A stretch of 64,000 bases of DNA, from assembly GCA_019359435.1 (NCBI GenBank), contig JAHHHI010000091.1:1-64000 (forward strand). The letters are read 5' to 3'. Positions 7,222 to 11,994 of the stretch are shown piece by piece; the stretch's first letter is position 1; each line of letters opens with the position of its first letter. Under the pieces are notes generated by a model, which ran no database searches, had not been told where the DNA came from, and saw only the letters and a program-made list of their open reading frames with translations. This DNA is from Kaiparowitsia implicata GSE-PSE-MK54-09C. Its GTDB lineage: Bacteria > Cyanobacteriota > Cyanobacteriia > Elainellales > Elainellaceae. Both the position numbers and the translations under genes were made by a program.

Positions 7222-7944
7222 CTAATCTACCTGCAACGCTTGGCGCTGCAGGATGAGCAATTCATCGATTCCAGCCTCAGCCATATCCAGCATTTGGTTA
7301 AGCTGGCTGCGGCTAAAGCTCCCCGCCTCTGCCGTACCTTGCAGTTCGATCAGCTGCCGGTCGCCGTTGAGCACCACATTAAAATCAATCTCTGCCGCTA
7401 TATCCTCCGCATAATCCAAATCCAGATACGGCTCGCCCTCCAACAGCCCCACCGACACCGCCGCAATTTGGCACGCGATAGGAGATACACTGATCTCTCC
7501 CTGCTGAATGAGAGATTGAATCGCGTCACACAGAGCCACATAGCCGCCAGTAATGGAGGTGGTGCGCGTTCCGGCATCGGCCTGCAGCACATCTGCATCC
7601 ACCAACAGCGTGCGCTCTCCGAGAGCCTGGAGGTCGAGGGCTGCCCGCAGGCTGCGACCAATCAACCGCTGAATTTCTTGGGTGCGTCCCGACAGCTTCA
7701 TCCACTCACGGGAATGGCGCTGGGGCGTGGCCGACGGCAACATACGGTATTCTGCCGTGAGCCAGCCCTGACCGCTGCCTTCTAAAAAACGGGGCACGCC
7801 AGGCTGCACAGCCACCGTGCAGAGCACTTGTGTATCACCGCAGCGGGCTAAGACAGAACCCGCCGCAAACCGGGTAAACTTGCGCTCAAACCGCACAGGT
7901 CGAAGCTGGCCGGGGTGGCGACCATCGGAACGGGGGCGAACCAT
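7222..7944 (-). CDS. rph: ribonuclease PH
   Basis: 240 residues, full length. RNase PH is a phosphate-dependent 3'-5' exoribonuclease that trims tRNA 3' ends. Family marks are the start [23 protein letters not shown], the block [21 protein letters not shown], the conserved [17 protein letters not shown] and [19 protein letters not shown]. The C-terminal [19 protein letters not shown] and [10 protein letters not shown] segments form the active site. Start and stop agree with the family. It may head an operon with the two ABC genes downstream on the same strand. Confidence 0.95.
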
Positions 7945-8057
7945 GCTGAATTGCCTCTAGTGACTCAAAAAGGGAAGCCTCAATCAGAATACCGAAGAGA
8001 CGCAGGAAGCGGAACGCCCTCTAAGCTTGTTATCGTATGAGAAGATATTGAGCAATC

Positions 8058-8188
8058 CTAGGGCGTGTCATGAATTCCGACCAAAAGCCTTGTGCTGTGA
8101 GCGTTGCCACGCCCGACCCCAAAAACAGGCTAGGGGCTGTGACCGTTGATTTCTGGGCCATCAGCAGCTAATTGGTGGCAGCCCCTAG
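8058..8188. mobile_element. MITE family A, copy 1
   Basis: 131 bp, bounded by CTAG at both ends, with imperfect inverted termini (CTAGGGCGTGTCATGAATT and, reading inward from the right, CTAGGGGCTGCCACCAATT). A third, internal CTAG at 8130-8133 starts a 59-bp sub-unit (8130-8188) with perfect 10-bp ends CTAGGGGCTG/CAGCCCCTAG. There is no open frame. CTAG matches the YTAR target of IS5-type transposases, so an IS5-superfamily helper is likely. Confidence 0.8.
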
Positions 8189-8315
8189 GGCGTGCCATCA
8201 ATTCCGACCAAAAGCCTTGTGCTGTTAGCGTTGCAACGCCCAACCCCAAAAACAGGCTAGGGGCTGTGACCGTTGATTTCTGGGCCATCAGCAGCTAATT
8301 GGTGGCAGCCCCTAG
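8185..8315. mobile_element. MITE family A, copy 2 (tandem)
   Basis: A second 131-bp copy in the same orientation, sharing CTAG 8185-8188 with copy 1. The left 72 bases differ from copy 1 at five positions; the 59-bp CTAG-bounded right unit (8257-8315) is identical. The shared CTAG suggests insertion of one copy into the terminal CTAG of the other, or unequal recombination. Confidence 0.8.
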
Positions 8316-8484
8316 TATCATGTCGTAAAGAGATCAGGGTTTGGGTATGTTTGAGGGGACGACGCTGCCGTTGACAGAGGCTTCATGCGGCTCTTGGGGC
8401 TAGCATTTGCATGGCTTACCCATCGAAACCCAGCCGATGGCCTGACATCTCCTAATCACCTGAACGACTACTATTGCTATTTTT

Positions 8485-9951
8485 ATGCCTAATTCTGCCT
8501 GGCACGATTCTGATTCCTACGATGACCTGGAAACCATTAGCTCCTTAGTGTCTGACCTCTCTGAGTCAGAAGATGTTAGCGCTCATTTTTATCGCGGATT
8601 GGCTGGGCGACGGCAAAAGGCGGCGGCAGCGCTCACCATTGTATGGAGTGGCACCATTGCATTGCACCTGTTTTCGTGGGGCTATTGGGCGGTGATGGCC
8701 CTGACAACGATGATGGGCATTCACATTCTGCGATTGCTAACAGCGCGGCAGCAACCCCTGCCGGAGCCGTTGCCAGAACGTGACCCTGCTAAGCTGCCGT
8801 TTGTATCGCTCATGGTGGCTGCAAAGAATGAAGAAACGGTGATTGCGTCTCTGGTAAAGGCGCTGTGCCGAGTGGACTATCCGGCCAGTCGCTATGAGCT
8901 ATGGGTGATTGACGACCACAGCACCGACCGCACGCCCCAAGTGTTGCATCAGCTGCAGCAAGAGTATCCCCAGCTCAAGGTGCTGACCCGTAGCAGTGAT
9001 GCGGGCGGCGGCAAGTCTGGGGCGTTGAACCAGGCCTGTGCGCTCGCGGCAGGAGACATCATCGGCGTATTTGATGCAGATGCCCAAATTCCGTCAGATA
9101 TGCTGCGGCGGGTGCTGACGCTGTTTCAGCAGGAGCAGGTGGGTGCCGTGCAAATGCGGAAGGCGATCGCCCAGGCAGAACGCACACGGCACTCGTCAAA
9201 CCTGTGGATTCGCGGGCAAATGGCCGAAATGGCGATCGACAGCTTTTATCAGCAGCAGCGCATTGCCATTGGCGGCGTGGGCGAGTTGCGGGGCAACGGC
9301 ATGTTTGTTCGCCGTGCGGCATTAGATCAGTGCGGCAACTGGAATGAAGAAACCATTACCGACGACCTAGACCTCACCTTCCGGCTGCATCTCGCCGGGT
9401 GGGATATTGAGTTTTTGATGCATCCCGCGGTGGTAGAAGAAGGCGTCACCCAAGCGCGCGGGCTATGGCACCAGCGCAACCGCTGGGCCGAGGGCGGCTA
9501 TCAGCGCTATCTCGACTACTGGCGGCTGATTATTCGCAACCGCCTAGGTCTAAAGAAAACCATCGATTTGCTGGCCTTTTTTGTGTTGCAATACATTTTG
9601 CCCACGGCCACCGTGCCCGACCTGATGATGGCGATCGCCCGCAGCCGTCCCCCGATGTTGGCTCCAGTAACAAGCCTGTCTGTCGCCATGTCGATGATGG
9701 GGATGTATGCCGGGCTGCGTCGCATTCAGGCACAACGCGCCAAGCGTAGCGAACGGGGGCGATCGCCCGCGCTCATCTGGCAAGCGCTGCACCAGGCGAT
9801 ACTCGGCACAGTCTATATGGTTCACTGGCTCCCCGTGATGTCCAGCACGACTGCCCGCATCTCGGTGCGGCCCAAGCAGTTGAAGTGGGTGAAAACAGCG
9901 CATCACGGCACCGATGAGGTGTGGCTAGATGTGTCAGAGCAGGAAGGATGA
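8485..9951 (+). CDS. mgdA: family 2 glycosyltransferase, probable beta-monoglucosyldiacylglycerol synthase
   Basis: 488 residues. Two N-terminal membrane segments (about 45-90) precede a GT-A catalytic domain with PFVSLMVAAKNEETVIASLV, the DDHSTDRTP motif, the DADAQIP metal site, a TDDLDLTFRL acceptor loop and the QRNRWAEGG processive-type motif. C-terminal membrane segments follow (about 350-400). This layout matches the cyanobacterial enzyme that transfers glucose from UDP-glucose to diacylglycerol, the first step to galactolipids of thylakoids. Family assignment to GT2 is firm; the lipid substrate is inferred. Other membrane GT2 enzymes share these motifs. Confidence 0.78.
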   Translation: MPNSAWHDSDSYDDLETISSLVSDLSESEDVSAHFYRGLAGRRQKAAAALTIVWSGTIALHLFSWGYWAVMALTTMMGIHILRLLTARQQPLPEPLPERDPAKLPFVSLMVAAKNEETVIASLVKALCRVDYPASRYELWVIDDHSTDRTPQVLHQLQQEYPQLKVLTRSSDAGGGKSGALNQACALAAGDIIGVFDADAQIPSDMLRRVLTLFQQEQVGAVQMRKAIAQAERTRHSSNLWIRGQMAEMAIDSFYQQQRIAIGGVGELRGNGMFVRRAALDQCGNWNEETITDDLDLTFRLHLAGWDIEFLMHPAVVEEGVTQARGLWHQRNRWAEGGYQRYLDYWRLIIRNRLGLKKTIDLLAFFVLQYILPTATVPDLMMAIARSRPPMLAPVTSLSVAMSMMGMYAGLRRIQAQRAKRSERGRSPALIWQALHQAILGTVYMVHWLPVMSSTTARISVRPKQLKWVKTAHHGTDEVWLDVSEQEG

Positions 9952-11043: not shown

Positions 11044-11173
11044 TTAGGGGCTATCATCAATTGACCGCTAACAGCCTGAGAATCAACGGTTACAGCCCCT
11101 AGCCTGTTTCTGGGTCGGGCGTGGCACCGTCGATAGAATCAGGATTTCGGCCAGACTTGATGACAGGCTCTAG
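11044..11173. mobile_element. MITE family A, copy 3 (inverted)
   Basis: 130 bp related to the copies at 8058-8315 but in the opposite orientation. The ends are TTAGGGGCTATCATCAATTG and, from the right, CTAGAGCCTGTCATCAAG. The internal CTAG is conserved at 11099-11102, giving the same 59-bp sub-unit (11044-11102). The right terminal CTAG (11170-11173) overlaps the thiD stop codon. TTAG and CTAG both fit a YTAR target. Confidence 0.75.
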
Positions 11174-11994
11174 GTCAGCAACGGGTAGAAGTGACCCACG
11201 GGCCCCTGCCCCTGCCCAATGCGCAGCGAATGCCGCAGGGCGTTAGTCACATAGTGCTTAGCCTGTTGCACCGCGCTAAATTGCGCTATGCCTTGAGCCA
11301 GGTTCGCAGCGATCGCCGCCGATAAGGTGCAGCCCGTGCCGTGAGTGTCCCGCGTTTCCACCGGCTCTGTTTGCAGCACTTCTAGCCGATCGCCGTCAAA
11401 CCACACATCCACGCCCCGCAAATCCCCTTCCATGCCGCCGCCTTTGACCAGCACAGCCCCAGTGCCCTGCTCAAAAATAGCGGCAGCAGCAGCTTTCATA
11501 TCGCTCAGGCTATTCAGCTCTAACCCGCTGAGGATCTGGGCTTCGTAGCGATTGGGGGTCAGAATAGCGGCGAGAGGAATTAGATCTCGGGTTAGGGCGG
11601 CGATCGCCGCATCATCAATCAACTGCGCCCCTGTGCGCGACACCATGACGGGATCAACTACCAGATTAGGCAGCGCCCATTGCCGCACCTGCTGTGCCAC
11701 GGCTGCGATAATGTCTTCATTGAGCAGCATCCCGGTTTTGACAGCCTGAACGCCAATATCGTCTACCACCGCGGAAATCTGAGCAATCACAGCGTCAGGC
11801 GGCAGCGCATCCACCCGGGTGACGACCTGGGTGTTTTGGGCTGTGATGCAGGTGAGGGCGCTGGTGCCGTGGACTTGGTGAAAGGCAAAGGTTCGCAAAT
11901 CTGCCTGAATGCCGGCCCCACCGCCGCTATCGGAACCAGCAATGGTGAGGGCCACGGGAATATCACGGTTGGGAGTATCAGTCGGTGCAGGCAT
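11170..11994 (-). CDS. thiD: hydroxymethylpyrimidine / phosphomethylpyrimidine kinase
   Basis: 274 residues, normal length. ThiD phosphorylates hydroxymethylpyrimidine twice for thiamine synthesis in the cytoplasm. Ribokinase-fold marks are LTIAGSDSGGGAGIQADL near residue 16, the TGMLL loop, LVVDPVMVSRTG, LTPNRYEA and the anion-hole/catalytic DTHGTGCTLSAAIA near residue 215. The start MPAPTDTPN is supported by the adjacent family N-terminus. The TAG stop lies in the terminal CTAG of the MITE downstream, so the end of this gene and the end of the element are the same bases. Confidence 0.93.
   Translation of the reverse strand: MPAPTDTPNRDIPVALTIAGSDSGGGAGIQADLRTFAFHQVHGTSALTCITAQNTQVVTRVDALPPDAVIAQISAVVDDIGVQAVKTGMLLNEDIIAAVAQQVRQWALPNLVVDPVMVSRTGAQLIDDAAIAALTRDLIPLAAILTPNRYEAQILSGLELNSLSDMKAAAAAIFEQGTGAVLVKGGGMEGDLRGVDVWFDGDRLEVLQTEPVETRDTHGTGCTLSAAIAANLAQGIAQFSAVQQAKHYVTNALRHSLRIGQGQGPVGHFYPLLT

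Follow-up and report, generated by a model that had tools for sequence, protein, structure and literature searches.

What is the tandem repeat at positions 8058-8315 of the window (the whole 64,000-nucleotide stretch of Kaiparowitsia implicata GSE-PSE-MK54-09C DNA that was analysed), how did two copies come to lie there head to tail, and is each copy one mobile unit or two? The first-pass annotation had described a tandem MITE with an internal palindrome bounded by CTAG, and our analysis supports all three elements of that description, the palindrome being genuine. It had also proposed that a smaller element was inserted in a larger one, or that either part of a modular unit could be mobilised, and this proposal fared differently.

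Architecture of the repeat

Direct reading of the sequence confirms two head-to-tail copies of 131 bp with one common CTAG, which repeat with a period of 127 and are 96% identical. The third CTAG noticed in each copy does open a 59-bp unit with perfect 10-bp ends (CTAGGGGCTG/CAGCCCCTAG), at 8130-8188 and 8257-8315. The chance expectation for the three end patterns is 0.01-0.03 each per window, so the repeat lies far beyond chance. The features of the locus are as follows.

8058-8188, plus strand: copy 1 including the flanking CTA and TAG (direct reading, repeat period and genome profile)
8061-8185: mobile unit proper of copy 1, 125 bp, with limits predicted from the TA duplication
8185-8315, plus strand: copy 2, differing from copy 1 at five positions; mobile unit 8188-8312
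8185-8188, no strand: the dimer's common CTAG, made of the last C of copy 1, TA (8186-8187) and the first G of copy 2
8061-8076, plus strand (copy 1), and 8188-8203 (copy 2): left terminal inverted repeat, family consensus GGGCGTGTCATCAATT
8170-8185, minus strand (copy 1), and 8297-8312 (copy 2): right terminal inverted repeat, by end-pattern match
8061-8114, plus strand: hairpin 1 of copy 1, arms 8061-8067 and 8108-8114; in copy 2, arms 8188-8194 and 8235-8241 with one mismatch
8130-8188, plus strand: hairpin 2 of copy 1, identical with the 59-bp unit, arms 8130-8140 and 8178-8188; in copy 2, 8257-8315
11044-11173, minus strand: third, diverged copy, whose CTAG gives the TAG stop (11172-11170) to the flanking minus-strand gene
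11170-11994, minus strand: that gene, for phosphomethylpyrimidine kinase, ending in the third copy's CTAG
7222-7944, minus strand: RNase PH gene, left of the dimer
8485-9951, plus strand: glycosyltransferase family 2 gene, right of the dimer

The dimer thus sits in the divergent intergenic region between the RNase PH and glycosyltransferase genes. Both of its right ends read GGTGGC, where the majority of copies have GATGAC. No open reading frame of at least 80 aa in the window's list crosses the 131-bp copies, which therefore hold no transposase gene. Rfam gave no match within 7900-8500, no terminator-like site was found around the dimer, and a plasmid collection held no match to it.

Abundance and distribution

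The assembly of the genome comprises 6.72 Mb in 109 contigs. A genome search that scored 40 of 204 first-look candidates placed the repeat in at least 40 positions with E ≤ 3.7e-41. A profile search of 1.664 Mb, a quarter of the genome, found 67 places, namely 60 full-length and 7 partial copies. The whole genome may hold roughly 240 copies, an estimate that is only rough because the stretches of the sample were picked by contig and partly for already known matches. A second abundant palindromic repeat of about 126-140 bp, unrelated to the first, follows the IS5 fragment described below (G000:C77:46640-46775; G000 is the present genome) and occurs at many places in the same sample.

Run with strict filters, at which weak matches are lost, a covariance model built from 23 sequences gives hits in 59 of the 388 class genomes (the present one included) and in 24 of 160 genera. 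In a scan of named genomes, the matches listed for the core of the element include Nodosilinea nodulosa PCC 7104, Leptolyngbya sp. PCC 6406, Halomicronema sp. CCY15110, Tildeniella nuda and Stenomitos rutilans. Across 51 distinct sequences the length stays within 129-133 bp.

Target site

The first-pass annotation took CTAG as the boundary of the element. If all four bases were duplicated on insertion, the two sides of a copy should be alike. TA is constant in most copies, and there are copies with unequal outer bases (TTAG and CTAG, CTAG and CTAA, or TTAG and CTAA on the left and right), for which a 4-bp CTAG duplication was rejected and which fit a duplication of TA within YTAR. In some older copies TA is no longer present on one side.

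An empty site was found for one copy of a relative, locus L227 in genome G211. Each of the 26 genomes searched in that genus has a match to the flanks or to the element, and a profile search that recovered the G211 control found no element in any of the 17 congeners with both flanks in one locus. In the 16 of these with a placeable gene end, the right-hand gene runs for 129 open codons and then meets a stop, YTA, at the exact insertion position; the empty sites read CTAG in six, TTAG in six, TTAA in one and YTAC in three. This comparison shows that the L227 element entered a stop codon and rebuilt the stop with its own terminal base. When paralogous empty sites were sought in the present genome, joined flanks matched only inside or beside the repeats themselves. 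Separately, loci L087 (G033) and L088 (G026), from different genera, have in common a near-identical stretch that contains one and the same insertion of the MITE, a likeness due either to transfer or to bin contamination.

Ends of the repeat and the putative parent

The inverted ends next to TA have the consensus GGGCGTGTCATCAATT on the left and GGGGCTGTCATCAATT on the right. In the present genome, a fragment at C77:46418-46575, situated where a truncated IS5-type transposase gene ends, carries 15 of the 16 bases of the left end. This single-copy fragment is the only trace of an autonomous partner found in the genome, from whose 109 contigs repeated insertion sequences may be missing. Used as a query, the fragment matched 54 of the 388 genomes of the class, its own included, and at 12 of the 29 class loci examined a matching inverted end lay 823-852 bp away, delimiting IS5-family elements. 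The left end of the MITE agrees with the IS ends in relatives at 16/16 bases and the right end at 14/16, and the likeness covers about the terminal 16-19 bp only. The IS element at L160, which has a full-length gene, scores 303 bits (cut-off 110) against the NCBIfam model NF033580 for IS5 transposases and contains the domains PF13340 and PF01609.

Elements of this type have been described. ISPssp5 (IS5/IS427, 837 bp) has the right inverted repeat GGGCGTGTCATCAATTA, a left repeat with one base different and the direct repeat TA (PMC6514802); as printed there, its right repeat and the left end of the MITE are identical over 16 bases. The IS427-group elements considered from Paracoccus measure 832-865 bp and have 2-bp repeats in 10 of 11 cases (PMC3281130). 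Since ISPssp5-type ends duplicate TA, the mobile unit would measure 125 bp, with TA as its duplication and CTAG composed of target plus tip. By its ends and its target, the MITE is assigned to the IS427 group of the IS5 family, and we infer that the repeats are non-autonomous derivatives moved by an IS427-type transposase.

Other parents were considered and rejected. For an IS701-family parent, PF13546 picks out two weak loci in the genome, and the stretches read show matching ends at neither of them. An IS630/Tc1-mariner parent, considered for the TA duplication, was rejected as none of nine PF13358 loci is bounded on both sides by matching ends in the stretches read; a single end near one IS630 locus lies outside the IS630 relic. 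IS200/IS605-type elements, which are palindrome-ended, have asymmetric ends without terminal inverted repeats and make no duplication. An element of that type is ruled out here by the inverted-repeat ends and the TA duplication.

Two further observations concern neighbouring insertion sequences. An IS630-family relic at G000:C76:61700-62860, with an 88% identical copy at C8:150-1280, stands on C76 beside an isolated IS427-type end. Another IS5-family element, with the end CTAGGGCGTGTAGACAATCAA, is found at G000:C30:23780-23905 and C3:48178-48303; as both places are close to contig ends, it is perhaps multi-copy and cut by the assembly.

One unit or two?

The nested reading of the first-pass annotation drew on the fact that the 59-bp parts of the window copies are identical and the 72-bp parts differ at five positions. 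The counts are correct, and the contrast carries little weight. For five differences out of five to fall within the first 72 of 131 positions has a probability of P = 0.047, and when all pairs of the 60 genomic copies are compared, both parts are conserved to an equal degree (mean identity 0.841 and 0.849).

The search for free 59-bp units that had been suggested as a check was run in the element's own genome, where 85 exact 59-bp palindromes occur. The surroundings were read for 55 distinct ones of these 85, and 54 of the 55 carry the 72-bp part; the sole free intact unit lies at G000:C13:34001-34059. The companion search for free 72-bp units yielded two pieces that are degenerate and only 72-bp-like, at C55:282730-282804 (with CTAG on both sides) and C56:198500-198572. 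These three pieces, together with the perfect 10-bp ends and the CTAG of the inner unit, are what favours a modular element, in which a 59-bp palindrome, mobile in its own right, was inserted into a larger element and either part can move. However, deletion between CTAG(GG) repeats within one element can account for both kinds of piece, a deletion between CTAGGG repeats yielding an identical free unit, and the pieces are therefore no proof that the parts are mobile. Moreover, the inner end, CTAGGGGCTGTGAC, lacks the TCATCAATT that is common to both outer ends. With 54 of 55 palindromes attached, we regard a modular element as very improbable, and neither an insertion of a small element nor regular mobilisation of the unit as either part is supported. 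In some G033 copies, not all, TCATCAATT is altered alike at both ends (TCATCCATT in L096). The internal CTAG occurs at the same place in elements of several cyanobacterial families, so that if it ever arose by insertion, this was an old event.

Origin of the dimers

The 1.664-Mb sample holds three dimers. Each is head to tail with a common CTAG position, which in one of them now reads CTAA. Two of the dimers join unlike partners (identity 0.879 and 0.756) that are not mutually nearest, ranking 27/11 and 54/39 of 59. This is expected if a new copy lands at the end of an old one, and it indicates that these two dimers arose by insertion into the CTAG at the old copy's end. As 161 of the 5713 CTAG of the sample lie within full copies, a few such insertions would need no special mechanism. 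The window pair are mutual best matches (identity 0.962) and, the copies being sisters, less decisive; sister insertion and local duplication are both possible origins. A fourth dimer, in Leptolyngbya sp. PCC 6406 (L321:4249-4504), is likewise head to tail, with one common CTAG and near-identical copies.

Could the dimers instead be tandem duplications, or products of head-to-tail transposition intermediates? That all four dimers found (three from the present genome and the one from L321) have the same orientation, and that the window and L321 pairs are near-identical, would agree with such an origin. On the other hand, inverted dimers would be long palindromes, presumably unstable and hard to assemble, and the partners are unlike in two of the three dimers of the present genome. 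We consider this alternative unlikely, if by no means negligible, and retain end insertion as the preferred origin.

Placement relative to genes

The repeat avoids genes: joined flanks form an open frame of at least 150 codons at 6 of 60 copies, compared with 333 of 500 random positions, and inspection of the six by eye revealed no clear case of gene interruption. Among the 59 classed copies, 19 lie in convergent, 29 in tandem and 11 in divergent spacers, the last including both copies of the window dimer, whereas 9.1, 30.2 and 19.7 would be expected from non-genic CTAG (P = 6e-4).

Does the repeat prefer stop codons? In the present genome it shows no enrichment, as 9 of 60 copies overlap a stop compared with a background of 171/1597 (P = 0.15). 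In relatives the overlap amounts to 14 of 28 loci against 9 of 117 non-genic CTAG, and to 19 of 60 further loci against 17 of 205 (P = 2e-5), both sets consisting of high-scoring copies and not of a random draw, with genes called as long open frames only. The set of 28 leaves out a locus truncated at a contig end as well as the second L199 copy; since L196 and L202 have common flanks, 13 of 27 independent loci overlap a stop. Five genomes of one genus have 15 of 29 copies in a stop codon (G273 3/7, G211 3/7, G332 3/6, G337 5/6, G352 1/3), and five other genomes 4 of 31 (G328 1/7, G205 0/6, G264 1/7, G165 0/6, G114 2/5). A family-wide rule of stop-codon placement was rejected on account of this variation by genome and the lack of enrichment in the present one. 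The overlap can in part be a by-product, in that a frame running into the tip may end there: the left gene at L227 seems to end in the element tip after a frameshift, and two frames among the 60 further loci end inside an element. Purifying selection may be enough to explain the placement, to which a role of the hairpins at transcript ends would add.

Hairpins and inner arms

Each end of the element has a complementary arm inside it. In hairpin 1 the left tip GGGCGYG is complementary to the internal CRCGCCC, and hairpin 2 is the palindrome that starts at the internal CTAG. In the 51 sequences, which are the best-scoring ones and by this choice favour conserved features, the ends reach 0.935 and 0.955 in mean column conservation and the inner arms 0.916 and 0.957, compared with 0.781 in the spacer and 0.664 and 0.606 in the loops. 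In hairpin 1, pair 9-52 is T-A in 25, C-G in 20 and unpaired in 6 of the 51, giving one compensatory pair, and the covariation for this hairpin is limited since it rests on that pair. The change from T to C there abolishes end-to-end pairing at this position and mostly keeps hairpin 1. No two-sided change is present in the alignment for hairpin 2. The end-to-end pairing has three pairs with two-sided changes, as co-evolving transposase sites would also give. Predicted folds vary by copy, and in some the end-to-end pairing is the predicted fold.

These data suggest that the inner arms are under some constraint, either in RNA or in transposition. That they are kept for a role in transcripts near the 3' ends of genes, rather than for transposition, is a serious possibility, which we rate somewhat below an even chance. 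A constraint without any RNA function, in which the transposition complex requires the arms at the DNA level in cis, e.g. as hairpins or extra binding sites, would account for arms that are complementary to the tips, as conserved as these and co-varying at pair 9-52; moreover, families that spread must have stayed movable. However, no such inner arms are seen in the outermost 20-40 bases at the ends of the parent IS, and MITEs of other families are thought to need their ends only. To this reading, too, we give a real chance that stops a little short of one in two.

Proposed mechanism and significance

The explanation that we favour for the whole, and hold to be highly probable, is that an IS427-group (IS5-family) transposase acts in trans on a MITE, with TA duplication and with dimers formed by end insertion. 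The transposase would recognise the inverted ends TAGGGCGTGTCATCAATT, and the 125-bp unit would enter at the TA within YTAR, mostly CTAG, with duplication of TA. As the unit starts with G and ends with C, each junction would read TAG on the strand running into it, and an insertion in a TAG or TAA stop would therefore rebuild a stop. A resident copy would offer a CTAG at each end, where later copies could form head-to-tail dimers with one CTAG. Each end would pair with its internal complementary arm into a hairpin of its own, which would make the internal CTAG the foot of hairpin 2. The end sequence, the target, the fixed architecture and the dimers of unlike copies are direct observations.

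The repeats form a real and abundant family of MITEs, of a kind already known, for which IS427-group transposition is a good explanation. Their constancy across the class and their paired inner arms are the unusual features. We put forward as a speculation, on balance doubtful, that they represent an ancient class-wide MITE lineage whose two-hairpin design is under selection, the hairpins providing a transcript end or insulator by which the element could occupy stop codons and convergent spacers harmlessly. If this were true, the YTAR target, the tip base G and the RNA structure would together make a self-sparing mobile element.

Our analysis offers an explanation for a repeat that is very frequent in filamentous cyanobacterial genomes, links it to its likely mover and corrects the duplicated target to TA. 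The family may also serve as a clear test case for the question of how a gene-less mobile element comes to retain its length and inner pairing across a class, and by insertion that rebuilds a stop a transposon would have a simple means of persisting in a compact genome. Our literature search, partial in coverage, found no description of the element, which may yet be in print, the MITE list of Anabaena sp. 90 (PMC3542288) being one place where it could stand.

Comparison with known elements

How does the repeat compare with elements already known? Several short mobile or palindromic repeats resemble it in some respect. Nezha is a cyanobacterial MITE of similar size (Zhou 2008). It reportedly has a DTA duplication and ISNpu3-like ends, in which the present repeat would differ from it.

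With the IS427 group, represented by ISPssp5 (PMC6514802) and the Paracoccus elements (PMC3281130), the MITE has in common ends of the type GGGCGTGTCATCAATTA and a duplication of TA or 2 bp, and parents of ~830 bp exist in relatives. It differs from them in its length of 125 bp, in the missing transposase gene, in its two inner hairpin arms and in its right end, GGGGCTG in place of GGGCGTG. GTAG-tagged REP repeats (PMC3733652) are palindromic and intergenic as well and are known in cyanobacteria; they measure 20-40 bp and bear a one-sided GTAG tag, whereas the present repeat has 131 bp, inverted ends and CTAG targets. Bacterial MITEs with a known parent IS include MITEAba12 (113 bp; PMC6382973), which has ISAba12 as its parent and 9-bp duplications. 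Both elements are short, non-coding and of nearly fixed length, and each resembles its parent IS at the ends only; in contrast to MITEAba12, the repeat described here duplicates TA, is spread over many families of its class and carries paired inner arms.
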